From assembly GCA_947172415.1 (NCBI GenBank), contig OX359195.1:5679501-5743500 (forward strand): a stretch of 64,000 nucleotides of DNA, in the 5' to 3' direction. A program made the position numbers and the translations under genes. Positions 16,485 to 47,748 of the stretch are shown in pieces (the first letter of the stretch is position 1; each line of letters begins with the position of its first letter). The stretch is from Chondrosia reniformis. Taxonomy: Eukaryota; Porifera; Demospongiae; Chondrillida; Chondrillidae. The notes under the pieces were generated by a model, which did not search any database, was not told the DNA's origin, and saw only the letters and a list, made by a program, of their open reading frames with translations.

Positions 16485-16490
16485 CGATAC

Positions 16491-19599: not shown

Positions 19600-20540
19600 A
19601 CTATATAGTAAATGTACAATCATGCCATCAGAGTAGAACATTCTTTGTCATGCATGGCCCAGTGGAGAAGAAAGAGAAAATCTTTGCATCCTAATCCAAA
19701 GCTCTCACTAGGTTTAGTTCCCTAGCTATAGATGTAGCATGTAAGAAAATGGCACTGATACATAAGATTAGATAGATAAGTTATAGACTCATGATCATGC
19801 CAACCATATCTAAAGGAAATGGAGATAATGTGCTTTAGTAGTGATATGTACGTACTTGTTAAGTATCACGTATGTTGATATGACATGCAAAATTGGACTT
19901 GGAATGGCTGGAATTATTTCAACATTATGCATATATATCTACACGATGTTCTCCCAATACATGCATACTCTATAGCCAGAAATATCTCAAATTGAGATTT
20001 ATTAGTTGTTTGTAAAATGAAGTTTAATGTTCTCCCAAATGATTCGGTAGTTCACTATAGTTAGTTGTCAAATCAGTAGTGGAGAGGCCGGGACAGGTGG
20101 AGGGTACCAAGGAGAATATGAACATCAGGACACAACATGGACTTGGGGTTTCCCCTTAGCCAGTGTGAAACTCTCTAATTTGGCATGTTGAGGAGTAAAC
20201 AATATCCACCCATCTGATTGGTCAAACATAGCTAATTACGTATACCATATTGACCAATCAATTGCCCACTTTACTATATATATATTAATATTATTAATTA
20301 TATAAAGTGACCTCATGATAGTTCAGAGGCTGCTCAGCCAGGGCTGGCTTACTGGTCACTATCTAAATGGTATATGGTTAAATGGATGTGCTGGTGAGTG
20401 TGGTTTGGGTTTGGGAGAATGGCTTACAAAGATCGTTACGAGTGAATCTGAGTAAACAATTTCGAGAATGAGATGGTGCTATTGGCTAAATAAAAGTGAT
20501 TGCCTAAGCTGGAACATTTGATAAAAGGAATTTGCATTTA
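19600..20540. other. Duplicated PINX1 intron-3 sequence, no gene
   Basis: 19600-20060 corresponds to 27960-28420 in PINX1 intron 3 and includes the shared marker GATTCGGTAGTTCACTA. 20060-20500 has no counterpart in copy 1 and shows no recognisable gene. Confidence 0.6.
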
Positions 20541-22821: not shown

Positions 22822-23257
22822 TTTGGGAGCAACTGGAACGCTACACAGTAAGTCGGGGATAAGTGCTAGGTACCAATTAAAAACGATGATGTCATACTAA
22901 CTTAATTCATGCAAGGTACCGCTGATGCGTAATTAGAACTTAGGGCGGGGGGCATGCGCGAATACACGCCATTAGCACCTACCCGCCTGCTTTTTTACCA
23001 TATAGCACATATAAAGTGAGAATATTACATATTGGAATATACATTGTATAGGTACATTGCTAGTTTGGTATATAGTCTGGTAGATAGATAGATAGATATT
23101 TTTATTTGTCATCAGGAGTGCTGCATCCACATCATCGGTGGATTTTCATGCAGGTCCTGGATCAAGTACAATGCAAAAAGATAGAGAGTGAATGCATAAT
23201 GTTAATATAATAAATAGATTTAAAGAGTTTAAATGGATATAGATTAAGTTCATGGAA

Positions 23258-23719
23258 TTAATTCACATTTGTACAGTTCAAGTTGGCTAGGGCTCTTCTG
23301 AATGATTTTGCATCTCTAATGTCTTTGATAGCAGATGGCAGACAGTTAAAATGATTTGCCCCTTGATATTCAAATGTTGAACGATAGGCATTGGTTAGTG
23401 GTCGCTTCAAGTGTAGATTGTTCTTCCTGCGTGTTGAGGGGTAGTTCACATTATGAACCACGTTTGCGACAAACTTTGCAGTCAGGAATGCAGGTGCTCT
23501 GTTGGTCAGGCAGCAATGTACTTTACCTAACATAGCTAGATGTCTTCTATGGTGTAGGGTAGTCCACCCTAACATTTGTCGGAGTGGGTGGCTTCTAGTT
23601 CTAGGTGGTTTCTGAAGAATCATGCGCATGGCATAATTCTGAATCCTCTCAACCCTGTCACTGAGAGTGGTGCCACAAGAGTGCCAAACAACAGAACAAT
23701 AGTCAAGATGTGGAAGCAC
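23258..23719 (-). pseudogene. Retrotransposon C-terminal segment, shifted frame
   Basis: Continues the polyprotein in another frame (LPHLDYCSVVWHSCG, RIQNYAMRMI, FRRALANLN), typical of the region after RT in CR1/L2-like elements. One missing base near 23715 accounts for the break. Confidence 0.85.
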
Positions 23720-26672
23720 ATGCTAGATAGAGCAGTTTCCTTATGGAGCATGGCAAATAGTGACCTGCTCTTCTAATGAGGGCTAGCTTGGCCAGACATT
23801 TCTTCCGTACACTGTCTATATGCAACTGCCAATTTAGATCTCTGTCAATGTGGACACCAAGATATTTCACTGATACTTGTTTAGTTAATACCTGATCTCC
23901 GGATCTGACTTGTACATCATCTGACTTCCTCTTATTGCACTTCCTACTAAGCACCATAAGCTGGGTCTTAGCAATGTTCATTTTTAGTCCATTTTCCATT
24001 ATCCACTTTGCTACCTGACTAAGGTCTTCTTCTAACCTGATACTAACACATTTAGCATCACTATCCGAGGTGTATATTGTTATATCATCAGCATAAAGAT
24101 TAACTGTGCATTTCTCCACAGCATTGGGCAGGTCATTAATAAACAATATAAATAGAAGTGGGCCCAAGATGGAGCCTTGTGGGACTCCTCTCGTAAGAGT
24201 GCGCCACTCTGATTTCACTCCTTCCATTACTACTCTGTACTTCCTGCCTTGCAAGTAGTTTGTGAACCAGGCTAGTTCTCTACCACAGACTCCGTATGCA
24301 TTAATTTTCTTCAGAAGCATTGTATGATCAATTGAGTCAAATGCTTTACTCAGGTCTATCATGATAGTCCCTACGATATCACCTTTATCCAGTGAAGTCC
24401 TCCAGTCATCAACAGTTTTCAATAAGACATCCTGCGTGGAGTGATTTGGTCGGAAACCAGCCTGGACCTCATTTATTAGTTCGTGTGCCTCAAGATAGTC
24501 ATACAACTGTTGGTGTATCAGGGATTCAAATACCTTAGCTAATACTGGGATCACAGAAACTGGACGATAGTTTGTAACATCATGTTTGTCTCCTGTCTTA
24601 GGTACTGGGGTCACATTTGCCTCCTTCCACTCAGTCGGCATCTGCCCTAACCTAATGCTTGCATTAAGTAGGGCAGTAAGGCTGTTGGCTATGGCTGGAG
24701 CTACCATTCTAAGAATCTTTGCAGATATCATATCTGGACCAGTTGCTTTCTTCTCATCCAAGGTAGTTAATTTCTTAACTACCATTTCTTCTTCAATCTC
24801 TATCAGCCTGAAGATACTTGAAACTGTGGATAATGACTGATGCATGTTGCCAGGGGATGGGATTGAAAGATTACTGAAATGCTCCAAGAAACAGTCCACA
24901 ATAGCTTCTGGTTTAGTTAATGTTGTTCCTTTGTGTGTGAGAGATGACATAAGCTTTGATTGTCCTCTACCAAGAACAGCATTCAGCTGTCTCCAGACCC
25001 TCTTTGGCTGCCATGAGATGCCTTTGCATACTGCTGCATAATGTTCTGCCTTTGCTTTCCTCATTTGCCGATTTACTTCCCTCTTCAGGTGGTTAAATCT
25101 TTCCCAGTCCTCCTTTGCATTACTCCTCCAATGTTTCCGCCTATAAAGTAGTTCCTTGATCTCATGCATCAATTGCCTGAGTTCAGCATCAATCCAGTCA
25201 TCATTTTCCCTTTTCCTTCTCCTAACCTTCACCAGGGGAGCATGCTTATCAAGAATGTCAAGAAAGAGAGTCTTCCAATAGTTCCATTTGTCATCCACAT
25301 TATCATAGATGTCAAGCACCTGCCAAGGTGCTGTCTCCAGATCGGACATAAGATCATCAATGCTGCATCTTTTATAGCTTCTCACCACACTCACACTCTC
25401 AGATACTGTCAGTCTCTTTGACCACTCCCCATAAATCATTTGATGGTCACTACTGGTTAGAGCAAGTGTACCAGTACCACTAAACATCTCTGGGTTTGTG
25501 GTAAAGATTAAGTCAATAAGAGTACTGGAGCGGTCTGTTGTTCGAGTTGGTTCAGTAATTAACTGAGAGAGATTGTAGTTTTCGGTGATTAACAGTAGCT
25601 CATCTACCTGGTGTGATGGCACCAGCATGTTACAGTTCAAGTCCCCCATCAGTACAACTTCCTTCCTTTCAGCAATTACTCTCTCAAGATGGTAACCCAG
25701 ATTTCTTATGGCATTTACATCAGTGTGTGGCGGTTTATAGATGTTGCCCAAGAGAATTCTTTTTTTGTTCAGATGCAATTCAAGCCAGATTATCTCCATT
25801 CCATCCTCTTCGAGGTCAAGTCTTCGTCTGCTTCGGCATCCTTTAGGAACATAGACAAGTACACCACCTCCTCTCCCATCTCGGTCTTTCCTATACGTAT
25901 GGTAGGATGGGATACTGATCTCATGGTCTGGTACAGTACAATTCAACCATGTCTCACTCAGACCAAGAATGACTGTTCTTTTGGCATTAACCATAGACAT
26001 TTTTATTTCATCTATCTTTGGCAAGAGGCTCTGGATGTTCAAATGGCAGAAAAGAGGGGTTTCTGAGGAAGTTTCCAATGGTGATTTGTATGGTTCTGGC
26101 AGAGGGTCAGGCATTTCCAGAGTGGAGATGTTCAGGACACTGTCATCATCCAAAAAGGGAAGCTCTGCCATCAGGCATCCTGGACACAACCATGGATCTT
26201 CCACATGATCACTTAGGATCTGATACTCGGAGGGGGACACTCCACAACACTTAGCATGTGTCCACATGTCACATGTGGAGCACAGAATGGCGCGCTGGTT
26301 CTTTTTAACGGGATTACTGCACACAGTACAGGGGTACGCTACTGGGCCTGGATTCATCTCAATGTCACCTGACAGAGCCAAGATCAATAAGGTTTTCTTC
26401 GAGACCCAAGGTCTACAAGGGTTAGTCCTTGTTCTTACACGAATTCTACGTACAGATCTTCGTACGGATCGAGGTGACAAAATCTGACTCGGGTTGGTGG
26501 TAAGAACATTCAGCATTACAGATGGACCTGCTTTAAATTCTGGAGCAAATAGGATATCAGCAGCTCCATACTCACTAGTTCTGTCCGCACAGGTTGTCAC
26601 AGTAAGCCTCGCTCGCCAAGAGAGGGCAAAGAAAATCACCAAAATCCACGTGGTCAATCGAGGTGCCGCCAT
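23703..26672 (-). CDS. Retrotransposon polyprotein: signal-like N-terminus, 2A, PHD finger, APE endonuclease, RT (frameshifted at end)
   Basis: 989 residues before the frame is lost. Residues 8-20 are hydrophobic (TWILVIFFALSW). 95-110 contain LLILALSGDIEMNPGP, which fits the 2A consensus D-x-E-x-N-P-G-P. 115-166 form a PHD-type zinc finger (C115-C118, C131-C134, H139-C142, C163-C166). From about 208 the endonuclease has HLNIQSLLPK, LSETWLN, DGRGGGVLVY, GDLNCN, TLIDLIFT and SSDHQ. The reverse transcriptase has TNYRPVSVIPVLAKVFE, DLSKAFDSIDH, GVPQGSILGPLLF and YADD. Ribosome skipping would release the first 109 residues from the rest. The terminal residues ACASTS are out of frame. Confidence 0.88.
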   Translation of the reverse strand: MAAPRLTTWILVIFFALSWRARLTVTTCADRTSEYGAADILFAPEFKAGPSVMLNVLTTNPSQILSPRSVRRSVRRIRVRTRTNPCRPWVSKKTLLILALSGDIEMNPGPVAYPCTVCSNPVKKNQRAILCSTCDMWTHAKCCGVSPSEYQILSDHVEDPWLCPGCLMAELPFLDDDSVLNISTLEMPDPLPEPYKSPLETSSETPLFCHLNIQSLLPKIDEIKMSMVNAKRTVILGLSETWLNCTVPDHEISIPSYHTYRKDRDGRGGGVLVYVPKGCRSRRRLDLEEDGMEIIWLELHLNKKRILLGNIYKPPHTDVNAIRNLGYHLERVIAERKEVVLMGDLNCNMLVPSHQVDELLLITENYNLSQLITEPTRTTDRSSTLIDLIFTTNPEMFSGTGTLALTSSDHQMIYGEWSKRLTVSESVSVVRSYKRCSIDDLMSDLETAPWQVLDIYDNVDDKWNYWKTLFLDILDKHAPLVKVRRRKRENDDWIDAELRQLMHEIKELLYRRKHWRSNAKEDWERFNHLKREVNRQMRKAKAEHYAAVCKGISWQPKRVWRQLNAVLGRGQSKLMSSLTHKGTTLTKPEAIVDCFLEHFSNLSIPSPGNMHQSLSTVSSIFRLIEIEEEMVVKKLTTLDEKKATGPDMISAKILRMVAPAIANSLTALLNASIRLGQMPTEWKEANVTPVPKTGDKHDVTNYRPVSVIPVLAKVFESLIHQQLYDYLEAHELINEVQAGFRPNHSTQDVLLKTVDDWRTSLDKGDIVGTIMIDLSKAFDSIDHTMLLKKINAYGVCGRELAWFTNYLQGRKYRVVMEGVKSEWRTLTRGVPQGSILGPLLFILFINDLPNAVEKCTVNLYADDITIYTSDSDAKCVSIRLEEDLSQVAKWIMENGLKMNIAKTQLMVLSRKCNKRKSDDVQVRSGDQVLTKQVSVKYLGVHIDRDLNWQLHIDSVRKKCLAKLALIRRAGHYLPCSIRKLLYLACASTS

Positions 26673-26760
26673 CTTATAATTACATTCCTAATCATGCAAG
26701 TTCAGTCATTAATTCCTTTGTCTTCAGTCTCTGATTTTTGCCTCCCCAGCTATCATATCC

Positions 26761-27606: not shown

Positions 27607-29356
27607 TTATAATATTCTTTTTAATTTATGATTTTTCTTTGATCCTTTTAATTTCTTCTTTGGAGGTACATCTGGGCAGACATCTTGACTTATAGCTTCT
27701 GATTTATCAGTACTAAATGTGGCCATCTTGTCCTGGAAATATTCCACCATGCTCTCCTTCCTCGTAACCGTGGTAATACCATGAGATGTTGCAACAGGAC
27801 AGCTTTGAGATGGAACTTTTGGATTTGAATATTGCTCATGCACCCTTTTTCTTCTTCCAAGGATGCAGTTCAAGTCTTTCTGAGACTTACTGGCCAGGTC
27901 CTTCCCCTTTAGGAACTTGCTGTATCTAAAGTCATCCAAAGAGACTATATAGTAAATGTACAATCATGCCATCAGAGTAGAACATTCTATGTCATGCATG
28001 GCCCAGTGGAGAAGGAGAAAATCTTTGCATCCTAATCCAAAGCTCTCACTAGGTTTAGTTCCCTATAGGCTTTTACTCTAAAGTAGATGTAGCATGTAAG
28101 AAAATGGTACTGATACATAAGATTAGATAGATAAGTTAGACTATTCAATTTCATGCCAACCATATCTAAAGGGAAATGGAGATAATGTGCTTTAGTAGTG
28201 GTATGTACTTGTTAAGTATCACGTATGTTGATATGACAGGCAAAATTGGACTTGGAATGGCTGGAATTTCAACATTATATTATTATATGTATATCTACCT
28301 GATGTTCTCCCAACACATGCTCTATAGCCAGAAATATTATAATGGAATGCTCAAATTGAGATTTAGTAGTTGTTTGTAAAATGAAGTTTAAAATGATTCG
28401 GTAGTTCACTAGTTGTCAAAATCAGCCAAACTGCTAAACAAAGTCTGTCATTATTACTACATATACATACATAGTTATGAAGCACACAAATTCCTTACTT
28501 TAATACTTTGCTGTTAGCTGCTGACTTGAAGAGGCACTTGGTGTTAAATTCTTCATCATTCTGCTCTACTGAAGTCTTATTACCATGGTGATCACTGTTG
28601 TGATGTTTGTTAAGCCGGCCCAGTAGCTCCTCAAAGGCTGTCTGATGTCCTGTCCACCCGTCATCCAGTCCCGCCTTGGCCCCCAAACCTGATGGACAGG
28701 AAATGAGACTAAAAGGAGAACCTACTAGTCTGGCCTACAAGACCATCTCTGCAAGCACTGTGGGCAGTTAATAGAGGGACAGTCTATATAGTATCATTAG
28801 ATACCTTATGCTGATCTAAATACATACGTACGTAGGGGCAGAATCTATTGGATATGAAAATATTATATGTGCATATACTCAGGTACTCCACTATGGGTAT
28901 AATATCAGTATCTCTACAGGTAACAACTACTGCACCCTATACTTAAGCCAAACAAAAATGGCCACTGGCCACAGATATCGGGCCATTTACGTATGTTTAT
29001 AAATCATTACGTCTTGGAAAACTGAATTCGAAAATAAGCTGCTTTTACTACCTAAATTATCCGTCTTCTTGCTGACTTTCAGATGCTCGCTCTTTCCATC
29101 TTCTTGCAAACCCAAGCCGCGCCCTTCCTTCCAACCCATCTTCTCCAGCATACGGTAGCCAAACTTATCCTTGTCTGCAGAGAAGTGAGACAGTAATAGT
29201 GATGACAAACATACTCAATCCGACGGATATACGTACGCGCACGTCTGTAAAGGAAAGCAGTTAAAATTTAAGCCCCCTACTTTTGCTCCATTTCGTATTT
29301 CTAGGATCATCACTCCATTTCTCACGGGAACGTCTTTCTGCCAGAGCTACTGCCAT
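27607..29356 (-). CDS. PINX1: PINX1 (G-patch telomerase inhibitor / ribosome biogenesis factor)
   Basis: Nucleolar G-patch protein that in vertebrates binds TERF1 and TERT and in yeast activates an RNA helicase. Four exons in perfect phase: 29281-29356, 29052-29174, 28499-28688, 27607-27925, giving 235 aa. Exon 1 MAVALAERRSREKWSDDPRN; exon 2 the G-patch (KFGYRMLEKMGWKEGRGLGLQ, HLKVSKKTDNLG); exon 3 AKAGLDDGWTGHQTAFEELL; exon 4 KFLKGKDLASKSQKDLNCILGRRKR and a lysine-rich tail. It is shorter than human PINX1 (328 aa) at the C-terminus. AATAAA lies at 27504-27509 (minus). The last exon has an extra T relative to its two duplicates, so its C-terminus reads KLKRIL rather than KLKEYYN. Confidence 0.9.
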
Positions 29357-33972: not shown

Positions 33973-34920
33973 CTATTTTTTTCTTTTTGGATTTTTCTCC
34001 TTCATTTCAGTGATCCATTCATCCAGATTCATTGTAGTCAGGCGTTGCTCAGATGTTTGATCAGGAGTTGCAGCTGGATAAGCACCACTTGCAAGGAGGA
34101 CATAGGGAGCATAGGCTATAGCCGTTCCATAGTATTTAGGTGGGCAGTACTTGAAGACATAGCCGGTGAAGATTTCCTTGTATTCCACCTTCTGGTTGTG
34201 TCCACAAAGCAGAACACTTTCTACTACCTTGAGGCGCTTGTCATCAAGATACTTTGTTATGATGGCATCATCTTGCTCTGGTAATGGATAGTATCCACAG
34301 TCTTCAACGAACAGACTTGAATCATTAGCCCGGTCCTTTGCTATGGCAAGTGCCATGTATGACCAGACATAGCCAGCAATTGGTCTGCCATATTGGTCAA
34401 GCTGGGAATTGGCCGATTTGGCTGCAGCAGTAACATGGGCACCAGGCAGCGGAGGAAACCACCCTTTCCTGTTTTCTGCATTACCAAATAATGCTTTGGT
34501 GGCATTCATAAGGGGTTCTATGTCATACACGTCTACTACGTTCGGTAGAGTTATCTCCTTTTTGCCAAATTTAAGTTTCCTAAAGTCATAGAGCCTTTTT
34601 CTTCTGAGATCAGGACTTCTGGCAAAATCATAACCCCAGACTCCGCTGCGTGGTCCAGTGAAGGATGACACAGCTATGGCATTAATTTGGCCTATATAGG
34701 CACCATTCTTTTGAGCGCTGTCATAAGAAACTATGCCAGGTAAGACCTCATCTTCCATGACAGCATTGCCAACATAGGTCAAGCCACATTCCAGCTTCGT
34801 GGTAGCAAGATAGTATCCGGTTGAATCTGTGTTCAGATACCCATAGCAATTGTTTCCCCCAGGTGATTTGAAGTTTCTGGCTACTTCAACAGGATCATAA
34901 GCTGCAAGTGAATATGACAT
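33973..34920 (-). CDS. Pyruvoyl-dependent histidine decarboxylase-like protein (bacterial type)
   Basis: Family reaction: L-histidine to histamine plus CO2, using a pyruvoyl group made by self-cleavage at a Ser-Ser bond. 315 aa, uninterrupted. Matches remembered features of lactobacillus/clostridial HdcA: GIVSYD (62-67), AYIGQIN (74-80), Ser85-Ser86-Phe in AVSSFTG as the expected cleavage site, GVWGYDFARSP (93-103), SSLFVEDCGYY (201-211, with the expected catalytic Glu206), TAIAYAPYVLL and DEWITEM. A lysine-rich tail follows. No signal peptide, so cytosolic. A short first exon is possible: ATGT before GTAAGT near 35020, joined at the TTGCAG just before codon AYDP, would give MSYDP; both starts are plausible. 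Animal HDC is normally PLP-dependent and unrelated, so horizontal transfer is inferred. Confidence 0.85.
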   Translation of the reverse strand: MSYSLAAYDPVEVARNFKSPGGNNCYGYLNTDSTGYYLATTKLECGLTYVGNAVMEDEVLPGIVSYDSAQKNGAYIGQINAIAVSSFTGPRSGVWGYDFARSPDLRRKRLYDFRKLKFGKKEITLPNVVDVYDIEPLMNATKALFGNAENRKGWFPPLPGAHVTAAAKSANSQLDQYGRPIAGYVWSYMALAIAKDRANDSSLFVEDCGYYPLPEQDDAIITKYLDDKRLKVVESVLLCGHNQKVEYKEIFTGYVFKYCPPKYYGTAIAYAPYVLLASGAYPAATPDQTSEQRLTTMNLDEWITEMKEKNPKRKK

Positions 34921-35314
34921 TAATAGGTTAATTTAGAAATCTATACTTATGTATTTAAAATGTGCCATTAAAAGTCAAGTCACTATATATAGATGAACGC
35001 ATGCATAATTAAACTTACACATTGCAGCAAAATCTCTTGCGAATCGAACTTATGCAATACGTACGTATTTTCTGCGCGCGTTCTTGTTACGAACGAGCAA
35101 AAAGCCCAAGCCTTTTATAGACTCTACCAGCTGCGTGATCACCAATCAAACACGTCCCCCAGCAAACCGCAAGCCGCGGCTGCTATACGCGAGGGTGTAC
35201 AAAAAGAGGGTATATATAATTCATGCCTGCTCTAATAATATTCTACCGAGAAACTTGCTTATTGCCGTCCATATACCTTAAGTATTTTCATTACATTCAA
35301 ATAGACCATACCAT
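34921..35314. promoter_or_regulatory. Divergent promoter, HDC-like / peptidase A
   Basis: 394 bp. The 120 bp before peptidase A (GAGAAACTTGCT, ATACCTTAAG, ATAGACCATACCATATGGCT) is shared with the other peptidase copies, and GTATATATAAT at about 35210 is TATA-like. The HDC-side half is not shared with the methyltransferase promoters. Confidence 0.6.
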
Positions 35315-36712
35315 ATGGCTCTCTCCGGCAAAGAGGAGGCTGCTATTATCAAGGAAATTAGCGAAAAGTTCGAAGCGGTTTCGCAAATTAAAAAACACTT
35401 ACTCGATGGAGAAGGTAAACACGAGGCCTACAGAAAACTGGAGGCGTTAATAAACAAATTCGGTGCTAGATTTTCGGGAACTCAGGCCTTGGAAGACGCC
35501 ATCACGCATGTCTCTGACTTAATGAAGCTAGAAGGAATTGACGTCACTCTGGAGAAGGCACAAGTCAGTCATTGGGTCCGTGGAGAGGAGAATGCACAGC
35601 TTGTCTCGCCGATAAAGGTTGACATTAAAATTTCGGGACTCGGAAGCAGCGTTGCTACTCCAAACGGCAGCCCATTGGAAGCAGACATCGTGGTTGTTAG
35701 GAACTTTGAAGAGCTCAAGAACCTTGGCACAGCTAACGTTTCTGATAAAATCGTTGTTTATAACCAGGAGTGGGTTGAAGAACACAAGTATCCCATTGAC
35801 AGCTATGGTGACACGGTGGCGTATCGGAATAGAGGTGCTTCAGAGGCTGCTAAACTTGGTGCTGTGGGTGCTCTCATTAGAAGTGTTACACCATTTTCAT
35901 TGGGTACAGTTCATACTGGTTGGCAAGACTATGAGGAGGGCGTTCCCAAGATACCAGCAGCCTGCATCACAAAAGAAGATGCTGAAATGCTTCAAAGCAT
36001 GTACACTAATGGAAAAAATCCACGTGTCAGCATGTTCATGGGAGCACAGACATTTCCCGACAAAGATTCCTTCAACATTGTAGCAGAAATTAAGGGAACT
36101 GAAAAAGTGGATGAAATTGTTATGATTGGTGGGCACATTGACAGCTGGGATATTGGCCAGGGAGCCATGGATGACGGAGGTGGTATAGCAATCTCCTGGG
36201 AAGTTTTGTCAATTCTTACCCAGCTCCAATTGAAACCAAAACGAACCCTCCGTGCTGTATTTTTCACAGGAGAAGAAAGTAATTTTGGTGGTGCAATTGC
36301 ATATTACAATGCTCACAAGAATGAAGCTGCCAATTACAGCATTATGTTTGAAAGTGATAGTGGAACCTTCACTCCAACTGGGATCAGATTTACAGGTTCA
36401 GGAAAAGCTAAAGCCATACTTGAGCTCATCGGAGGAACCTACTTGAAAAACTTGAAAGGACTTGATGCCTCAAGAGTTTTCAACTCTGCTGAAGTTCCAG
36501 ATTTAGAATTAGAAGGTTACAGTTGGCCGGCATTGAATGTACCAACTGGAAGCCTTTCCAATGTGTATGAAGGAGAAAGGTACTTCTGGTACCACCATTC
36601 ACCTGCAGACAAGATGAGTATCCAAGACCCTGATGATATGGACCTTTGCACTGTAGTGTGGGCCATCTACGCCTTTATTCTGGCTGACATGAATGATAAG
36701 CTCCCTCGTTAA
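35315..36712 (+). CDS. CPQ-like: Carboxypeptidase Q-like M28 metallopeptidase A (intact)
   Basis: Di-zinc M28 exopeptidase; human CPQ hydrolyses unsubstituted dipeptides. 465 aa, intronless. Closely follows the CPQ pattern: HWVRGEENAQLVSP, IKISGLGSSVATP, KIVVYNQEW, AACITKEDAEML. Likely zinc or catalytic residues are H274 (GGHIDSWD), D286 (GAMDDGG), E320/E321 (FTGEES), D348 (FESDSGTF) and H427/H428 (WYHHSPADK), all present. Unlike secreted vertebrate CPQ there is no signal peptide; the ATG is followed by the charged ALSGKEEAAIIKEISEK, so it is probably cytosolic. AATAAA lies at about 36796. Divergent from the HDC-like gene. Confidence 0.92.
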   Translation: MALSGKEEAAIIKEISEKFEAVSQIKKHLLDGEGKHEAYRKLEALINKFGARFSGTQALEDAITHVSDLMKLEGIDVTLEKAQVSHWVRGEENAQLVSPIKVDIKISGLGSSVATPNGSPLEADIVVVRNFEELKNLGTANVSDKIVVYNQEWVEEHKYPIDSYGDTVAYRNRGASEAAKLGAVGALIRSVTPFSLGTVHTGWQDYEEGVPKIPAACITKEDAEMLQSMYTNGKNPRVSMFMGAQTFPDKDSFNIVAEIKGTEKVDEIVMIGGHIDSWDIGQGAMDDGGGIAISWEVLSILTQLQLKPKRTLRAVFFTGEESNFGGAIAYYNAHKNEAANYSIMFESDSGTFTPTGIRFTGSGKAKAILELIGGTYLKNLKGLDASRVFNSAEVPDLELEGYSWPALNVPTGSLSNVYEGERYFWYHHSPADKMSIQDPDDMDLCTVVWAIYAFILADMNDKLPR

Positions 36713-37104
36713 TTCAAAGAACTCTGATCAATGGACATTGCATACTTCATCATTACACTATTATGCAATCTTACTATGTGTGTTTGCTGCAAAAATTAAT
36801 AAAGAATAATTGCAGAGATTGCAGAAATTGACTCAATATATTTACACTATAATTATAATAAAACAATGTATGATGAGAGATAGGGCAAATAGTAAGATTT
36901 ATAATAATTTCAAAAACTCATTGGAAATGTTTATTTATATATATATATACATTGGGCAAAATACATGCATGATTATGAAGCACTCCAATATATATAATAA
37001 TAATAATACTATAATTGTCTCCTCTGCTGTGACTGCTTCGCTCCACCCACCAATTCAGTCAATCACATTTCATAGCTACATCATAGTTAAGTTGCATGCA
37101 AAAT
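36713..37104. other. Peptidase A 3' flank
   Basis: No gene. 36885-37100 is shared with 47500-47720 (CAAAAACTCATTGGAAATGT, GTGACTGCTTCGCTCCACCC), linking the flanks of methyltransferases 1 and 4. Confidence 0.7.
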
Positions 37105-37890
37105 AATTAGTGAACCTAGTTATAGTACTGATATTAGAAATAGAGAAGTTAGAAGCCTTATTTCTAAGATAAGAGGTGGCACAGCTAGACTGAGGGTAGA
37201 ATCGAAGAGGGTAGATGGTCTAGAATAGAGAGGAGTAAGCGTCTGTGTCAGCACTGTGAATCACAGGAAGTAGAAGACACTAACCACTTCATTCTTATAG
37301 ATGTGAAAAGATTAGTAATGAAAGAAGTAGCTAGTTCGAGGAGTTAAGAGAGAGGGTTGCTGAATTTGATAATAAACTAGATAGTGAAAAGCTGATAGTG
37401 GCATTGACAGGAGTACTAAAATCGGGTTTTTAATATTAAAAATGTGGAAAAGACGAAACTATGTCGGATAATAACCCCATGGCTCCCTCCCCTGTGTATA
37501 TTTCACTTATATTTTTAATTGTTACTTTCCTATTACTTTTGTGTATATATGCACCTACATTATCTACATTACCCACATCATCTAAATCACCCTTCACCCT
37601 TTTTTCACTTGAACTAAAATGTACCACCTCCGAACTCAGTGCTTGTGTATATGTGATCGTGACTGTTTGGGATGTGCGGCCTGGTAGCCTTAAGTTGTGA
37701 GGGCTTAATGCGCCCAGGCAGTCGGGCTATGTACCTGGGCAGACAGCCTGGTAGCCTTAAGTGGCAATGGTTTATATGTGTCCAGGTATAGCCCTGTGCC
37801 CCTTAACCAGAACTGGTTGGCATTTATCTACACCTTAATGTGTGTACATGCATGGGTACTTTAATAATAATAATAATAATAATAATAAAT
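37105..37890 (+). mobile_element. 3' end of a non-LTR retrotransposon with (TAA)n tail
   Basis: The frame near 37240 reads RLCQHCESQEVEDTNHFILIDV, like the Cys-His motif near the C-terminus of many LINE ORF2 proteins, followed by a UTR and (TAATAA)n at about 37862-37890. Only the tail remains. Confidence 0.75.
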
Positions 37891-37928
37891 ATAATAAATA
37901 TAAACTTAAAAAATTCATTGGATAAGAT

Positions 37929-38759
37929 TTAAATGTTTTTCATGGCTGAAACAAAAATAAGACCTTTGAATGTTGGGGATACAGCATGATCAGGGAACTC
38001 TGTAGTCTTCTTATCTATGGCTGCAGTCGTAATATCACAGCACCCGGCGCTCTCCAAAGCAGTACGAACAATACCCTCATTTAGACCCAAATCAAAAAAT
38101 CTTTCTTCGCCTACTTTATAGAAGCATTGCCCGTCAAATGAGCTTGGTTTCTCTGTGATGGCACAATGCATGACGATCCGTCCGCCTGGTTTCACGTAGA
38201 TTTTGACGATGCGAGCTACGGTAGCATTGTAATCTTCTACTGTCCTACATGCAGCTTCCAAAACCAGACTAGAGAAGACTACGTCATAAGGTCCTTTGAG
38301 CTCATCAGGTATCATCTCCTTTTTGGTAACATCACAAGGAATTACGGACTTTATGACCTGGCGAAGTTCATCTTGACGCTTCTCAACATCGGCTTCGCTG
38401 CCACCTTCCAGTTCTTTGACCACAAAGTTAAAGGCAAATGTCCAATCTATACACGATGGATCTTTATTCAGCCACTGTTGTACAGCCTTTCGATTTTTAC
38501 TCGCGTACTCGGCCAGAACTATCTCCGACGCTATTTTAGTAGCACTGATCTGATAAATGATACCAGGCCCGCATCCCAAGTCCAATATATTCCATTTTCT
38601 GTCCTCTTCTATGATAAAGGTATTATAAAAGCTATGCAACTCCTTTAAAAAGAAATCTGCCATGGCAGACACTGATTCACCATTCCCATTTTTGTAATAT
38701 TCCAAAAAGCTCTCAATGTTAAACTTCGTTTCGTAGTCTTTACCAAAGCTTACTGCCAT
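37929..38759 (-). CDS. NNMT/PNMT/TEMT-family methyltransferase 1 (intact)
   Basis: SAM-dependent small-molecule N-methyltransferase; family members methylate nicotinamide, indolamines or phenylethanolamines. 276 aa, intronless. Motif I ILDLGCGPGIIYQ (58-70), acidic EIVLAEYASKNRKAVQQWL for ribose binding, DWTFAFNFV, CDVTKKEMIP, the YDVVFSSLVLEAACRT motif and VKPGGRIVMHCAI. N-terminal FGKDYETKFNIESFLEYY matches the family's substrate-side helix. Substrate cannot be told from sequence. Divergent from truncated peptidase B. Confidence 0.9.
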   Translation of the reverse strand: MAVSFGKDYETKFNIESFLEYYKNGNGESVSAMADFFLKELHSFYNTFIIEEDRKWNILDLGCGPGIIYQISATKIASEIVLAEYASKNRKAVQQWLNKDPSCIDWTFAFNFVVKELEGGSEADVEKRQDELRQVIKSVIPCDVTKKEMIPDELKGPYDVVFSSLVLEAACRTVEDYNATVARIVKIYVKPGGRIVMHCAITEKPSSFDGQCFYKVGEERFFDLGLNEGIVRTALESAGCCDITTAAIDKKTTEFPDHAVSPTFKGLIFVSAMKNI

Positions 38760-39200
38760 GTATTACGGTATAGATGACAACCAAAGCTATACAATGAAAT
38801 GTAGGTAAATCGCCGTATATGGATATAGGATCATATTACTTCCGGAAGTAATATGAATCAGTGACTTCACTTAAAAGACCAATTCTTCGTTGATGCCCCG
38901 AAAGTCGTATCAGGAGCTAGTAGTGCCGTTATGCGTTCATTTACCAGATCGTAGCTTCGCATCAAATAAAACGCGCGGAACACGCAAAATATTTTAAACG
39001 GCTCAATTCGCGAAAGTCTAGTACCCCTTTAGTTAATTAGCATGCACGCCCACCTTAGCCACACCAGTTACAGTGAGTATATAATATGTATAATCCATGC
39101 TTGCTTTATACTGAGAAACTTGCTGTTATTTTTAAACGGTTTAAGATTAGATCCATATATACCTTAAGCATTTTCATCATATCTAAATAGACCATACCAT
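38760..39200. promoter_or_regulatory. Divergent promoter, methyltransferase 1 / peptidase B, with palindromic ETS-like site
   Basis: 441 bp, nearly identical to 42245-42680. At 38831-38856 a perfect 26-bp palindrome is centred on ACTTCCGGAAGT, two head-to-head ETS-type GGAA cores. GTATATAATATG at about 39077 is TATA-like for the peptidase side. Confidence 0.7.
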
Positions 39201-39590
39201 ATGGCTCTCTCCGGCAAAGAAGAGGCTGCTATTATCAAGGAAATTAGCGAAAAGTTCGAAGCGGTTTCGCAAATCAAAAAACACTTACTCGATGGAGAAG
39301 GTAAACACGAGGCCCACAGGAAACTGGAGGCGTTAATAAACAAATTCGGTGCTAGATTTTCGGGAACTCAGGCCTTGGAAGACGCCATCACGCATGTCTC
39401 TGACTTAATGAAGCTAGAAGGAATTGACGTCACTCTGGAGAAGGCACAAGTCAGTCATTGGGTCCGTGGAGAGGAGAATGCACAGCTTGTCTCGCCGATA
39501 AAGGTTGACATTAAAATTTCGGGACTCGGAAGCAGCGTTGCTACTCCAAACGACAGCCCATTGGAAGCAGACATCGTATAGTTGTTAGGG
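39201..39590 (+). pseudogene. Carboxypeptidase Q-like peptidase B, truncated
   Basis: The first 126 codons match peptidase A, then ATCGTATAG (a TA insertion relative to ATCGTAG in copy D) gives a stop at 39579-39581. Homology ends about 10 bp later, where the inverted-repeat arm begins. The catalytic domain is lost. Confidence 0.95.
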
Positions 39591-39639
39591 CAAAAGTAAA
39601 GATATATAAAAATTTTGAAAAGTCATTGGAAATGTTTCA

Positions 39640-41335
39640 GACATGTTTGTGAATGCTGACACTAAGTTTTAGTTTCATATTTGCCACATGCTCACCAGAT
39701 CGCTAGAACTAGGGCCAAACTGCCCTACGAGGCACAAAACAACAACAATAACGTTAACATTAATGATTAGTGCTCTCTATAATATGCAGAACCCAAAGGA
39801 ACGTATAGGCGGAAGTTATATATTAGATCTGGAAAATGTATTTGGTTCAATCCCACACAAACTTCATCTTTGACATAGCAAGATCCCTGAAGAGGTCATT
39901 ACATATATTACCAATGCCTTCCACCACTTACAAGGCTTTGTCTCAACAACACATTGGTGTACTGCCATGTTCCCTATCAGAAGAGGTGCCTTCCAGGAAA
40001 CCTTTTCTTTCCTTCTGGCCTTCAATCCAATAATTGCCCTGCGTAATTCTCCCAGTCTTGGATACCAACTTAGACTACTGCCCTCTACCGATGATGCCAT
40101 GCAGGTACTCTCCCACCAATTCATACACTTATGTTAAATGGGACGAGGACGGTAGTAGTTAGGACCCAGGCTGGTATAAAGGTCTAGTTGCTGAACATTC
40201 AGACTCAATATCTAGCTCTTACAACCCTCCATTATTCTAATGGTAGCGGGACTGAATACATTGACTTGAGGACAATCCAGTGGAGACCTTGTAGGAAAAA
40301 TACCAGAAAATTTCTACCTATACCACTTATAGTACCTATGCTGCCTCTCTACTCCTCACCACATCGAATTGAAGCATTTGCCGATGACCTCTCTGTCTTA
40401 TCCACAGATAAGGCAGAGCATCAATCCATCCTGTCCACATTGGACACAAAATGTAAGGAGCTTGATCTCCATCTAAAACCTGAAAAGTGTCATCTTTAAT
40501 GGTTCCTCAGCTGATAAGATTCAGATTAGGCACAGGCGAAACAACTAATTAGCAGGAATCCCTCAAAGTTCCTTGAGAAATTCCTAGCACACTGTCCATC
40601 AGCTGCCTATTCAGCTGCAGGTACATAGTATACGTACTAGCTTAACGACCAAAATTCAATCTGCTCTTTATAATATTGACTCAAGTAATGTTAGGGGTGA
40701 ATATAAGACGTGGATCTACTCACACTATCTAGCCCCCTCATTGCGCTTCCATGCATCTAGCTGTTAATGCAATCAGAAAGACTACCATCACCAGGTTTCA
40801 ATCCATGCATTGTCAATAGATCTCTGAAATCATGGTTAGGCCTCCCAAGGTGTTCTACACTTACTGTGTTATACCATCCAGAGATCTTAAGATGTTCCCT
40901 ATCTTTCTTATATGGCAGAGAAAGCTCATGGTAGCATGCCAGGACTCATTCATACTGATATTTCATTATGAGACCTGTGATCTTGCCGATACTTTTTTAC
41001 AACACATGCATGTACATCACTTGATTTTCTGTAAATTTCAAAAATAATGATGTGTTCATTCTCTGCATTGCACTATGTCCTAGTGATACAATTATTATAA
41101 TACATAAACTAGCTCAATAGTCAGTTCAGCAACAACAAAAAAGGAGGCAACATGCTTCATTAATAATTGCCTGTAAGAGAGGCTGGCATTCGGTGCACCA
41201 CGCATTACACTCAAGCAGCCAATGGGTAACATCCTCCACCTTCCCTGCCCAGCACTCCCGACATGTCCTCTCCTCTCCCCGCCACCATCCACTCTCAATC
41301 ATGGGGGGCTGTCCCATCATCATCATCACTCATTT
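39640..41335 (+). mobile_element. Decayed non-LTR retrotransposon fragment
   Basis: RT pieces in shifting frames: YILDLENVFGSIPHKLHL at about 39820, AFADDLSVLS at about 40375, LDTKCKELDLHLKPEKCHL. At its right edge, on the minus strand, is RTCRECWAGKVEDVTHWLLECNAW, a Cys-His LINE C-terminal motif that may belong to a second element. Many stops. Confidence 0.75.
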
Positions 41336-41410
41336 GTGACTCTTGCTGGCCACTAATTATAATTACTCAAGCAACAAATTAAATTTGATATAAATATCGT
41401 TCAATAAGAT

Positions 41411-42244
41411 TCATTTAAATGTCTTTTTGGCTGAAACAAAAATAAAACCTTTGAATGATGGAGATTCAGCGTCATCTGGGATCCCTGTAGTCTTCTTATC
41501 TATAGCTGCAGTCGTAATATCACAGCATCCGGCGCTCTCCAAAGCAGTACGAACAATACCCTCATTTAGACCCAAATCAAAAAATCTTTCTTCGCCTACT
41601 TTATAGAAGCATTGCTCGTCAAGTGAGCTTGGTTTCTCTGTGATGGCACAATGCATGACGATCCTTCCGCCTGATTTCACGTAGATTTTGACGATGCGAG
41701 CTACGGTAGCATTGTAATCTTCTACTGTCCTACATGCAGATTCCAAAACCAGACTAGAGAAGACTACGTCATAAGGTCCTTTGTGCTCATCAGGTATCAT
41801 CTCCTTTTTGGTAACATCACAAGGAATTACGGACTTTACGGCCTGGCGAAGTTCATCTTGACGTTTCTCAACATCGGCATCGCTGCCACCTTCCAGTTCT
41901 TTGACCACAAAGTTAAAGGCAAATGTCCAATCTATAGACGATGGATCTTTATTCAGCCACTGTTGTACAGCCTGTCGATTGTTACTTGTGTACTCGGCCA
42001 GAACTATCTCCGACGCTATTTTAGTAGCACTGATCTGATAAATGATAACGGGCCCGCATCCCAACTCCAATATATTCCATTTTCTGTCCTCTTCTTTGAT
42101 AAAGGTATTATAAAAGCTATGCAACTCCTTTAAAAAGAAATCTGCCATGGCAGACACTGATTCACCATTCCCATTTTTGTAATATTCCAAAAAGCTCTCA
42201 ATGTTAAACTTCGTTTCGTAGTCTTTACCAAAGCTTACTGCCAT
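41411..42244 (-). CDS. NNMT/PNMT/TEMT-family methyltransferase 2 (intact frame)
   Basis: 277 aa, closely similar to methyltransferase 1. Motif I is ILELGCGPVIIYQ, so D60 is E and G66 is V; the family tolerates other residues after GP. Ends VSAKKTFK. Divergent from frameshifted peptidase C, sharing a promoter that lacks the ETS palindrome core. Confidence 0.88.
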   Translation of the reverse strand: MAVSFGKDYETKFNIESFLEYYKNGNGESVSAMADFFLKELHSFYNTFIKEEDRKWNILELGCGPVIIYQISATKIASEIVLAEYTSNNRQAVQQWLNKDPSSIDWTFAFNFVVKELEGGSDADVEKRQDELRQAVKSVIPCDVTKKEMIPDEHKGPYDVVFSSLVLESACRTVEDYNATVARIVKIYVKSGGRIVMHCAITEKPSSLDEQCFYKVGEERFFDLGLNEGIVRTALESAGCCDITTAAIDKKTTGIPDDAESPSFKGFIFVSAKKTFK

Positions 42245-42680
42245 GTATTACGGTATAGATGACAACCAAAGCTATACAATGAAATGTAGGTAAATCGCCG
42301 TATATGGATATAGGATCATATTACATAGTAATATGAATCAGTGACTTCACTTAAAAGACCAATTCTTCGTTGATGCCCCGAAAGTCGTATCAGGAGCTAG
42401 TAGTGCCGTTGTGCGTTCATTTACCAGATCGTAGCTTCGCATCAAATAAAACGCGCGGAACACGCAAAATATTTTAAACGGCTCAATTCGCGAAAGTCTA
42501 GTACCCCTTTAGTTAATTAGCATGCACGCCCACCTTAGCCACACCAGTTACAGTGAGTATATAATATGTATAATCCATGCTTGCTTTATACTGAGAAACT
42601 TGCTGTTATTTTTAAACGGTTTAAGATTTTATCCATATATACCTTAAGCATTTTCATCATATCTAAATAGACCATACCAT
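42245..42680. promoter_or_regulatory. Divergent promoter, methyltransferase 2 / peptidase C
   Basis: 436 bp, near-identical to 38760-39200, except that the ETS-like palindrome is reduced to CATATTACATAGTAATATG, losing CTTCCGGAAG. TATA-like GTATATAATATG retained at about 42558. Confidence 0.65.
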
Positions 42681-44074
42681 ATGGCTCTCTCCGGCGAAGA
42701 AGAGGCTGCTATTATCAAGGAAATTAGCGAAAAGTTCGAAGCGGTTTCGCAAATCAAAAAACACTTACTCGATGGAGAAGGTAAACACGAGGCCTACAGG
42801 AAACTGGAGGCGTTAGTAAACAAATTCGGTGCTAGATTTTCGGGAACTCAGGCCTTGGAAGACGCCATCACGCATGTCTCTGACTTAATGAAGCTAGAAG
42901 GAATTGACGTCACTCTGGAGAAGGCACAAGTTAAACATTGGGTCCGTGGAGAGGAGAATGCACAGCTTGTCTCGCCGATAAAGGTTGACATTAAAATTTC
43001 GGGACTCGGAAGCAGCGTTGCTACTCCAAACGACAGCCCATTGGAAGCAGACATCGTGGTTGTTAGGAACTTTGAAGAGCTCAAGAACCTTGGCACAGCT
43101 AACGTTTCTGATAAAATCGTTGTTTATAACCAGGAGTGGGTTGAAGAACACAAGTATCCCATTGACAGCTATGGTGACACGGTGGCGTATCGGAATAGAG
43201 GTGCTTCAGAGGCTGCTAAACTTGGTGCTGTGGGTGCTCTCATTAAAAGTGTTACACCATTTTCATTGGGTACAGTTCATACTGGTTGGCAAAGCTATGA
43301 GGAGGGCGTTCCCAAGGTACCAGCAGCCTGCATCACAATAGAAGATGCTGAAATGCTTCAAAGCATGTACACTAATGGAAAAAATCCACGTGTCAGCATG
43401 TTCATGGGAGCACAGACATTTCCCGACAAAGATTCCTTCAACATTGTAGCAGAAATTAAGGGAACTGAAAAAGTGGATGAAATTGTTATGATTGGTGGGC
43501 ACATTGACAGCTGGGATATTTGTCAGGGAGCCATGGATGACGGAGGTGCTGTAGCAATCTCCTGGGAGGTTTTGTCAATTCTTACCCAGCTCCAATTGAA
43601 ACCAAAACGAACCCTCCGTGCTGTATTTTTCACAGGAGAAGAAACAAATTTAAATGGTGCAACTGCTTATTACAATGCTCACAAGAATGAAGCTGCCAAT
43701 TACAGCATTATGTTTGAAAGTGATGATGGAACCTTCACTCCAACTGGAATCAGATTTACAGGTTCAGGAAAAGCTAAAGCCATATATACTTGAGCTCATT
43801 GGAGGAACCTATTGGAAAAACTTGAAAGGAATTGATGCCTCAAGGGTTTTCAACTCTGCCAGTATTTCAGACATAGAGGATTGGCAATCATTAAATGTAT
43901 ATACCAACTGGAAGCCTTTCCAATATGTATGAAGGAGAAAGGTACTTCTGGTACCACCATTCACCTGCAGACAAGATGAGTATCCAAGACCCTGATGATA
44001 TGGACCTTTGCACTGTAGCGTGGGCCATCTACACCTTTATTCTGGCTGACATGAATGATAAGCTTCCTCGTTAA
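42681..44074 (+). pseudogene. Carboxypeptidase Q-like peptidase C, frameshifted
   Basis: Nearly identical to peptidase D. Open for 370 codons, then broken by a 4-bp TATA insertion (GCCATATATACTTGAG for GCCATACTTGAG) near 43785. A second 4-bp insertion follows near 43897 (AATGTATATACCAAC for AATGTACCAAC). Net +8, so the frame is not restored and the last metal-ligand region (YHHSPADK) is lost. Zinc residues H and D of GGHIDSWDICQGAMDDGG are present. It sits between the arms of the inverted repeat. Confidence 0.93.
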
Positions 44075-44747
44075 TTCAAAGAACTCTGATCAATGGACAT
44101 TGCTTGCTTTAGCATCTACACTATTATAATAATACAATTTGATTGTAGGTGCTCTTACTGTGTGTGTTGCTGTAAAAATTAATGTAAAAAATTACTGCAG
44201 AAATTGACTCAAAACTTTAAATAATGTACATTTTAGTTATTAATATACAAAAGAAAAGTGCATGATACTTATATGCATACGCATATTATTGTACATCTTT
44301 CAAGTCAAAAATGAAAGTTGCGGAGTATATTAGACTCTATCAGAGAGTACTATAGTACTAGTAGGGCCTAGTACTCTTTATGTAGGGACGATACTGGTTG
44401 TTTCGTTTTCCCTATACATTTTGTAGAGGAGCGAAATTCTGAAATAGGCTGAAAAATCGTCGAAACAGATATAGAAAGATTAAAACATTTCTACAAAAAT
44501 AGTGAAGATGTATGTGCATGACGTTATACGCATATTCTTCTCGAAAATTAGTGCAAGTGCCATGGTCGCCTATACTGGAGATCATATAAATGTAAAATAA
44601 TAATAATATAAATAATAATAAAGTGACAAATGCTATAAACTAAAAAGTAAGCACTATATAGGCCAAGCTGGGCCAATGAGTCACTATAACAAAATTAGTG
44701 TATAGTTAGGTAAAGTATGTCCACTGATTCTACTTCCGGAATTAGTG
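44075..44747. other. Spacer, no gene
   Basis: Between peptidase C and methyltransferase 3. 44640-44725 is the reverse complement of about 48720-48800, tying it to the methyltransferase 4 promoter. A second ETS-like ACTTCCGGAA is at about 44732. Confidence 0.5.
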
Positions 44748-44767
44748 TATTACTTCCGGAAGTAATA
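44748..44767. promoter_or_regulatory. Palindromic ETS-like site upstream of methyltransferase 3
   Basis: Perfect 20-bp palindrome TATTACTTCCGGAAGTAATA, the same core as at 38831-38856. Confidence 0.6.
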
Positions 44768-44849
44768 TGATCCTATATCCATATACGGCGATTTACCCAC
44801 ATTTCATTTAGCACTTTTGTAGCTTTGGATGTCATCTATACCGTAATAC

Positions 44850-45692
44850 ATGGCAGTAAACTTTGGTAAAGACTACGAAACGAAGTTTAACATTAAGATC
44901 TATTTGGAATATTACTAAAATGAGAATGGTGAATCAGTGTCTGCCATGGCAGATTTCTTTTTAAAGGAGTTGCGTAGCTTTTATAGTACCTTAATCAAAG
45001 AAGAGGACAGAAATTGGAATATATTGGAGTTGGGATGCGGGCCTATTATCGTTTATCAGATTAGTGCCACTAAAATAGCGTCGGAGATAGTTCTGGCCGA
45101 GTACGCGAGTAACAATCGACAGGCTGTACAACAGTGGCTGAATAAAGATCCATCGTGTATAGATTGGACATTTGCCTTTAACTTTGTGGTCAAAGAACTG
45201 GAAGGTGGCAGCGAAGCCGATGTTGATAAGCGTCAAGATGAACTTCGCCAGGCCCTAAAGTCCGTAATTCCTTGTGATGTTACCAAAAAGGAGATGATAC
45301 CTGATGAGCACAAAGGACCTTATGACGTAGTCTTCTCTAGTCTGGTTTTGGAATCTGCATGTAGGACAGTAGAAGATTACAATGCTACCGTAGCTCGCAT
45401 CGTCAAAATCTACGTGAAATCAGGCGGAAGGATCGTCATGCATTGTGCCATCGCAGAGAAACCAAGCTCACTTGACGAGCAATGCTTCTATAAAGTAGGC
45501 GAAGAAAGATATTTTGATTTGGGTCTAAATGAGGGTATTGTTCGTACTGCTTTGGAGAGCGCCGGATGCTGTGATATTACGACTGCAGCTATAGATAAGA
45601 AGACTACAGGGATCCCTGATCATGCTGTATCCCCAACATTCAAAGGTTTTATTTTTGTTTCAGCCAAAAAGACATTAAATGAATCTTATTGA
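44850..45692 (+). pseudogene. NNMT/PNMT/TEMT-family methyltransferase 3, nonsense mutation
   Basis: The natural ATG at 44850 reads MAVNFGKDYETKFNI, then TAA at codon 23 (44916-44918, TAC TAA AAT against TAC AAA AAT in the other copies). From M at 44937 the frame is open for 251 aa with all core motifs (ILELGCGPIIVYQ, DVVFSSLVLESACRT). Internal initiation could give a protein lacking the N-terminal substrate-side helix; more likely a young pseudogene. Confidence 0.88.
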
Positions 45693-45759
45693 ACGATATT
45701 TATATCAAATTTAATTTGTTGCTTGAGTAATTATAATTAGTGGCCAGCAAGAGTCACAA

Positions 45760-47430
45760 ATGAGTGATGATGATGATGGGACAGCCCCCCATGATTGAGA
45801 GTGGATGGTGGCGGGGAGAGGAGAGGACATGTCGGGAGTGCTGGGCAGGGAAGGTGGAGGATGTTACCCATTGGCTGCTTGAGTGTAATGCGTGGTGCAC
45901 CGAATGCCAGCCTCTCTTACAGGCAATTATTAATGAAGCATGTTGCCTCCTTTTTTGTTGTTGCTGAACTGACTATTGAGCTAGTTTACGTATTATTGTA
46001 TCACTAGGACATAGTGCAATGCAGAGAATGAACACATCGATCATATGCATTATTTATGGAATTTACAGAAAATCAAATGATGTACATGCATGTGTTGTAA
46101 AAAAGTATCGGCAAGATCACAGGTCTCATAATGAAATATCAGTATGAATGAGTCCTGGCATGCTACCATGAGCTTTCTCTGCCATATAAGAAAGATAGAG
46201 AACATCTTAAGATCTCTGGATGGTATAACACAGTAAGTGTAGAACACCTTGGGAGGCCTAACCATGATTTCAGAGATCTATTGACAATGCATGGCTAATT
46301 AGTTGTTTCACCTGTACCTAATCTGAATCTTATCAGCTGAGGAACCATTAAAGATGACACTTTTCAGGTTTTAGATGGAGATCAAGCTCCTTACATTTTG
46401 TGTCCAATGTGGACAGAATGGATTGATGCTCTGCCTTATCTGTGGATTAGACAGAGAGGTCATCGGCAAATGCTTCAATTTGATGTGGTGAGGAGTAGAG
46501 AGGCAGCATAGGTACTGTAAGTGGTATAGGTAGAAATTATCTGGTATTTTTCCTACAATTAAGGTCTCCACTGGACTGTCCTTAAGTCAATGTATTCAGT
46601 CCCGCTACCATTAGAATAGTGGAGGGTTGTAAGAGCTAGATATTGAGTCTGAATGTTCAGCAACTAGACCTTTATACCAGCCTGGGTCCTAACTACTACC
46701 GTCCTCGTCCCATTTAACATAAGCGTATGAATTGGTGGGAGAGTACCTGGCATCATCGGTAGAGGGCAGTAGTCTAAGTTGGTATCCAAGACTGGGAGAA
46801 TTACGCAGGGCAATTATTTGATTGAAGGCCGTAAGGAAGATGACTAGAGAGAGAGGGTCTTCCTGGAAGGCACCTCTTCTGATGGGGAACATGGCAGTAC
46901 ACCAATGTGTTTATCTTTGTAAAGGTTCATCTTTCGACTTTGGGAGCGTCTAGAGACGCAGTTTTTTCGATTCTTCTTTCTGCCAAACGTTTTGACCCTG
47001 GGGGTCTTCTTCAGTGACTTACAAGGCTTTGTCTCAACAACACCAATGTGTTGTTGAGACAAAGCCTTGTAAGTGGTGGTAGGCATTGGTAATATATATA
47101 TGTAATGACCTCTTCAGGGATCTTTATATATCTTGCTATATATGTCAAAGATGAAGTTTGTGTCGGATTGAACCAAAGACATTTTCCAGATCTAATATAT
47201 AACTTCTGCCTATACGTTCCTTTGGGTTCTGCATATTATAGAGAGCACTAATCATTAATGTTAACGTTATTGTTGTTGTTTTGTGCCTCGTAGGGCAGTT
47301 TGGCCCTAGTTCTAGCGATCTGGTGAGCATGTGGCAAATATGAAACTAAAACTTAGTGTCAGCATTCACAAACATGTCTGAAACATTTCCAATGACTTTT
47401 CAAAATTTTTATATATCTTTACTTTTACCC
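45760..47430 (-). mobile_element. Decayed non-LTR retrotransposon fragment (inverted copy)
   Basis: Reverse-oriented copy of 39640-41335; same RT scraps on the minus strand (ILDLENVFGSIRHKLHL at about 47150-47200). Confidence 0.75.
46910..47073. mobile_element. Small insertion with hammerhead-like motif and long perfect hairpin
   Basis: Inserted relative to the left arm. ACACCAATGTG occurs on both sides. The insert has, on the minus strand, CTGAAGAAGACC...GGGTCAAAACGTT, and ends with a 26-bp perfect inverted copy of the adjoining target (47018-47043 against 47048-47073, loop CAAT). Confidence 0.6.
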
Positions 47431-47748
47431 TATCTATGTATATATATTCATTTCACAGAGTTATAGCACCAAATGTACATTAAAATATATACTGGCATGG
47501 TGAGAGATAGGGCAAATGGAAAGATTTAAAAAATTTCAAAAACTCATTGGAAATGTTTCGTACATGTTTGTGAATGCTGACGCATAAATACATGATCATG
47601 AAGCACTCCAATATACATACTATATTTGTCTCCTCTGCTGTGACTGCTTCGCTCCACCCACCAATTCAGTCAATCACACTTCATATATAGCTACATCATA
47701 GTTAAGTTGCATGCAATATAATAAATATAAACTTCATTGGATAAAGAT

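Follow-up and report, generated by a model that had tools for sequence, protein, structure and literature searches.

The window analysed here, a 64,000-nucleotide stretch of the kidney sponge Chondrosia reniformis genome (contig OX359195.1, positions 5,679,501 to 5,743,500), carries a nuclear gene of the bacterial-type histidine decarboxylase (HDC) family PF02329, predicted to encode a pyruvoyl-dependent amino-acid decarboxylase. A preliminary description of the window had proposed such a gene from the sequence alone, and its interpretation is supported in its main points: the gene is of this bacterial-type family, is present in two copies in the animal nucleus, and is under selection. Most likely it was gained long ago from a bacterium, after which it would have acquired a 5' intron, been duplicated, and been kept under purifying selection. 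We hold with moderate confidence the account as a whole, in which this anciently gained gene encodes a self-cleaving pyruvoyl decarboxylase most likely making histamine. Coordinates below are window positions unless a contig is named.

Family assignment and predicted active site

The gene lies on the minus strand as an open reading frame (ORF) of 315 codons running from an ATG at 34920 down to the stop codon at 33975-33973; the plus-strand reading of 33973-34920 contains 11 stops in translation. The hallmark motifs quoted in the preliminary description (GIVSYD, AYIGQIN, VSSFTG, GYDFARSP and SSLFVEDCG) are all found in the ORF, and the resemblance is far beyond chance. Searched against Pfam, the window protein matched PF02329 as the sole family at E 0.1 or less (180.2 bits against a gathering cut-off of 25 bits, E 6.7e-53), covering profile positions 8-290 of 294. 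In a sequence search of the PDB, both subunits of Lactobacillus 30a HdcA (1hq6) were matched, the alpha chain at E 1.1e-27 and the beta chain at E 4.6e-5. A structure prediction that drew on the window protein together with 52 of the 80 bacterial loci retained below gives the window protein the fold of 1PYA. Pyruvoyl-dependent arginine decarboxylase (Methanococcus jannaschii 1N2M; Chlamydia AaxB) shares the overall fold and the self-cleaving pyruvoyl chemistry, but it gave no Pfam match to the window protein at E 0.1 or less and its fold was only second best. The pyridoxal phosphate (PLP)-type family PF00282 likewise had no match in the window protein at that threshold.

The sponge protein resembles Lactobacillus 30a HdcA (1PYA/1HQ6) and other Gram-positive HdcA proteins in family, fold, Ser-Ser site and active-site residues, but is ~29-34% identical to them. 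Alignment to Ser81-Ser82 of the Lactobacillus enzyme places the predicted self-cleavage site at the Ser85-Ser86 codons (34663..34668, minus strand), with Ser86 expected to become the pyruvoyl group. This is the numbering given in the preliminary description, and it is right for the unspliced ORF; the pair would be Ser80/81 if the transcript is spliced as predicted below. Among the 87 bacterial rows of our alignment, the position of Ser82 is serine in all 87 and that of Ser81 in 85. Equivalents of Asp53, Ile59, Tyr62, Asp63, Phe83, Phe195 and Glu197, all active-site residues, are kept in both sponge copies (7/7 in the alignment).

Self-cleavage and histamine formation by the sponge protein are predictions that we consider likely. 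The proenzyme would fold and cut itself between Ser85 and Ser86 to yield two chains, a small beta and a large alpha, and the first residue of the alpha chain would be converted to pyruvoyl. Presumably, as in the known enzyme, the amino acid (most likely histidine) would be bound to the pyruvoyl group as a Schiff base and would lose CO2 to give histamine; the likely proton donor is Glu206, which corresponds to Glu197 in the Lactobacillus protein.

A second copy, selection and gene structure

The genome searched comprises 117,379,552 bases in 15 contigs, with the window on contig C7. The published genome note describes an assembly of 117.37 Mb in 14 chromosomes plus a mitochondrial genome, in which the scaffold N50 is 8,459,200 and chromosome 7 measures 8.46 Mb; one figure legend gives 117,390,217 bp, slightly above the total analysed here (PMC12181767). 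PF02329 matches the genome in two places, the window copy (copy 1) and C7:7635837-7636775 (copy 2, 89% identical in the genome search), which lie 1.9 Mb apart on the same chromosome among different neighbours. Over 306 aligned codons the copies share 91.7% DNA identity and 89.9% protein identity. Synonymous (dS) and nonsynonymous (dN) divergence are 0.25 and 0.048, and on the resulting dN/dS of 0.19 (bootstrap 95% 0.12-0.30) we reject a pseudogene.

The ORF of the preliminary description is real and on the minus strand, but comparison with copy 2 indicates that its start at 34920 is probably intronic. The main homology between the copies spans 938 bases, which correspond to the main coding exon (33973..34901 in copy 1, minus strand, holding all family motifs) plus 14 bases of the putative intron upstream of it; there is one separate 22-base match. 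Just before the conserved coding sequence, copy 2 carries a TAA in frame and then TTCAATTGCAG, whereas copy 1 reads TTCACTTGCAG there and stays open. A TTGCAG acceptor-like site is common to both, and a shared splice acceptor is the simplest reading of this border. In copy 1 a donor (ATGT / GTAAGT) is found 117 bases upstream in matching phase, the sole GTRAG-type solution within 400 bases. When upstream regions were simulated with a Markov model, a GTAAGT solution arose in 11/500 and a looser solution in 38/500. The predicted phase-1 intron (GTAAGT...TTCACTTGCAG) would thus occupy 117 bases at 34902..35018, and the coding part of exon 1 (ATGT) would lie at 35019..35022, both on the minus strand. 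The predicted spliced protein has 310 residues and begins M-S-Y-D-P-V, MSYDPVEVARNF... Copy 2 has no GTRAG-type donor solution; a weaker donor, GTAAAATT, would give it a possible first exon of 18 residues. We considered whether copy 2 is a retrocopy. Splicing should have removed the intron end from a retrocopy, and the 14 intron bases within the homology would fit a short DNA-level duplication better.

According to the genome note, 53 bacterial bins were recovered from this microbe-rich sponge specimen (PMC12181767), and contamination therefore had to be tested. A symbiont gene joined into a sponge scaffold during assembly would need to account for a pair of diverged copies that share a chromosome, are separated by 1.9 Mb and have different neighbours, and for an acceptor-like border present in both with a stop upstream of the acceptor in copy 2. 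Composition is also that of the host: GC content at third codon positions, 0.405 in one copy and 0.402 in the other, compares with 0.395-0.417 for five coding stretches of the window (two peptidase copies, two methyltransferase copies and one transporter ORF), and the CpG observed/expected ratio is 0.35 in copy 1 against 0.41 in the window. There are no N bases in the window or in 9,991 bases around copy 2, and the nearest bacteria found are only 43% identical to the sponge protein. We accordingly reject contamination or a chimeric assembly, to which we give almost no weight, and the earlier judgement that it is unlikely holds.

Relatives and origin

A single-sequence scan of the prokaryote genome collection found no relative. 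A profile scan that covered 84,980 prokaryote species, each represented by a single genome, and was restricted by two degenerate peptide patterns found 113 relatives, of which 80 were kept (numbered with the prefix L). Relatives were also present in 20 plasmid records (the best, from Salipiger, 40% identical), one phage record (a Streptococcus satellite phage) and two viral contigs. The tree took in seven of the 20 plasmid records and the phage record; the two viral-contig relatives were left out, as was L092, the frame of which stops early as extracted, while L066, also flagged, was retained. Closest to the sponge protein, at up to 43% identity, is a second bacterial clade distinct from the Gram-positive enzymes (including Planctomycetota L014, Chlamydiae L016 and L032, Salipiger L005 and Bacteroides L024). 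Before the APY motif the sponge pair has Thr/Ile where this clade has mostly Cys/Leu.

In the tree of 89 rows (two sponge, 87 bacterial), the sponge pair sits on a very long branch and joins five Alphaproteobacteria bins with support 92/94, where the program warns that two long branches meet. These five Alphaproteobacteria/Rhodospirillales bins (L039, L048, L050, L054 and L076) have a common divergent HDC-like protein, and their union with the sponge pair may reflect long-branch attraction. With the five and ten other rows removed (74 of 89 rows), the branch to the sponge pair was 3.3 changes per column and the pair belonged to no small starred set; the program again flagged a long-branch meeting, here of the sponge pair with a 36-row set including L007. 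Approximately unbiased (AU) tests rejected neither a grouping with the 37-row clade holding Gram-positive HdcA (p 0.43) nor one with Bacteroidota/Nitrospirota (p 0.32).

Lateral transfer from bacteria, as the preliminary description suggested, stands as the best reading of searches that covered prokaryote, plasmid and viral/phage collections, but not as proof, and it must be set against the very long sponge branch and the fact that no bacterial donor can be named. The same deep branch, with no close relative among the 80 kept of 113 loci, would also be expected if the gene were inherited from an old eukaryotic or sponge-wide ancestor and lost elsewhere so as to mimic transfer, and relatives were sought in non-eukaryotic collections only. 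That the relatives come from many phyla, where they sit in bacterial genomes, on plasmids and in phage-like records, speaks against such inheritance, weakly because those collections hold no eukaryotes. We regard old inheritance as quite improbable and retain ancient bacterial transfer.

Substrate of the sponge enzyme

Histidine is the most likely substrate, a proposal drawn from sequence comparison and less sure than the family assignment. In the best-studied bacteria, enzymes of this type convert histidine to histamine. Several observations weigh against the proposal or the wider account. Both copies fall far short of the 346.65-bit cut-off of the equivalog model TIGR00541 (copy 1, 175.4; copy 2, 186.2), and because of this the gene is filed under PF02329 and not under TIGR00541. 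Five near-invariant positions are altered in both copies, Glu66 to Gln and Met77 to Ala included; Arg64 to Ser and Gly to Ser at ORF residue 92 are likewise found in both. The hdcB maturation gene had no match in the sponge genome, in a search run without a positive control, and four of the six bacterial loci with neighbours scanned (L005, L014, L017 and L030) had no amino-acid antiporter among the neighbours tested. The missed cut-off and the altered residues could mean that the same gene and self-cleaving pyruvoyl chemistry now serve the decarboxylation of a different amino acid or a precursor of an amine. Constraint on the copies shows that they have some function, and we know of no assayed enzyme at their divergence.

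Failure at the TIGR00541 cut-off does not in itself disprove function. Of 11 bacterial relatives scored, only three pass (Limosilactobacillus L007, Eggerthella L052 and Labrenzia L064). The other eight fail (L005, L014, L015, L016, L024, L032, L039 and L086), and they include all five named members of the second clade. L005 is nevertheless annotated as a pyruvoyl HDC in its record, and a GadC-like antiporter adjoins the gene in two of the six scanned loci (L016 and L032). A gut-bacteria study lists among putative histamine producers Bacteroidota proteins that lie next to aaxC and Verrucomicrobiota proteins that lie next to gadC, and two phyla, including Verrucomicrobiota, are described there as having no species experimentally shown to make histamine (PMC8465708). 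Within the sponge copies, the equivalents of Asp63, Tyr62, Ile59, Phe83, Phe195 and Glu197 are kept, residues that line the histidine pocket. Grouping with the Gram-positive HdcA clade was not rejected (AU p 0.43, above). In a comparison of 12 rows, a GY stretch before VW/IW is common to the sponge pair and the two rows of that clade and absent in the eight other bacterial rows; the match is partial, as one clade row has AYG. Given these points, a shifted substrate seems to us unlikely, if a serious competitor, and we continue to favour histidine.

Genomic neighbourhood

The HDC-like gene lies at the edge of a tandem array (35315-50751). It is divergent from an M28-family peptidase of 465 residues (35315..36709, plus strand; PF04389; best PDB chain 3iib, a Peptidase M28, E 9.3e-63), the first of four copies in the window. 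The others begin at 39201 (truncated), 42681 (split over frames) and 49369, leaving two copies full-length and open; contig C3 holds two further partial matches. The shared divergent promoter claimed earlier agrees with this layout and with the ~290 bp between the genes (35023..35314), which is a candidate two-way promoter by position only. The peptidase upstream sequence does recur as described, in that the 44 bp before the peptidase recur three times, each ahead of a peptidase copy, but only inside the window, as in ordinary tandem duplication. Between 35 and 51 kb are also four copies of a small-molecule N-methyltransferase of the NNMT/PNMT/TEMT type, the first at 37929..38759 (minus strand; PF01234; best PDB chain 7egu, nicotinamide N-methyltransferase, E 4.3e-29) and the others at 41423, 44850 (plus strand) and 47752; one of the four is inverted, with a stop inside its Pfam match.

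This setting of peptidases and methyltransferases differs from that of Gram-positive hdcA, where L007 and L010 have hdcB and hdcC, and the sponge gene further differs in being a nuclear animal gene with a predicted intron. A functional cluster or pathway linking the HDC-like gene, peptidase and methyltransferases is suggested by position only. It stays speculative, since the genome as a whole contains 34 matches to PF01234 and the genes near copy 2 are different ones, part of a prolyl-oligopeptidase and an IQ-motif protein.

Elsewhere in the window are four U5 spliceosomal RNA genes in two pairs (14044-18975, plus strand). After each pair comes an ORF on the minus strand (14720-15076 and 19245-19619); the two are similar, and a third of the kind lies at 27610-27963. 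An ORF with an ethylbenzene-dehydrogenase-type domain (PF09459, 44 bits) is present on this animal chromosome at 21721-22896 (minus strand), and a retrotransposon-type ORF at 23706-26687 (minus strand) combines a PHD finger with endonuclease and reverse transcriptase domains. At 55028-55104 (minus strand) lies a tRNA of 77 bases with anticodon TCA, which ARAGORN calls a selenocysteine tRNA and which in Rfam matches only the general tRNA family; it could be a pseudogene or an atypical tRNA that reads UGA.

Histamine in animals

Animal histidine decarboxylase is a PLP enzyme (PF00282), the fold and cofactor of which are unrelated to those of pyruvoyl HDC; the product would be the same if histidine is the substrate in the sponge. 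There are reports of histamine in sponges, and some members of Verongimorpha, the wider group, contain alkaloids with a histamine part. The C. reniformis genome has three PF00282 matches. One is a gene resembling sphingosine-1-phosphate lyase; the other two are exons separated by 0.6 kb, of which the one tested resembles glutamate decarboxylase. No PLP histidine or aromatic-amino-acid decarboxylase was seen in the genome, in a search made exon by exon that could therefore miss a finely divided gene. One survey assigns the animal enzyme to the amino-acid decarboxylase (AADC) family and counts the monoaminergic system among bilaterian innovations (PMC10244343). For the sponge Amphimedon, a study that relied on PLP-type aadc and hdc genes credits histamine-making capacity to symbionts and denies it to the host (PMC10570526). 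Searches for PLP decarboxylases would overlook a host-encoded enzyme with a different fold. No pyruvoyl histidine decarboxylase from a sponge or other animal appears among the titles and abstract openings listed by searches of the openly licensed literature, which is weak evidence of novelty, as a supplementary gene table could name the gene.

We advance only tentatively a wider scenario in which this sponge lineage makes its own histamine through a domesticated pyruvoyl enzyme, without a PLP HDC. The gene would then have been domesticated for long enough to acquire an intron, be duplicated and form a branch of its own, and the neighbouring amplified array of M28 peptidase and amine-methyltransferase-like genes could supply histidine or modify the product. 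The sponge gene would clearly exemplify the domestication of a self-processing, bacterial-type enzyme in the nucleus of an animal, and it makes testable the question of whether a nerveless animal can make histamine itself, and by which enzyme. If the predicted enzyme is active on histidine, it would represent an unexpected histamine route for an animal.
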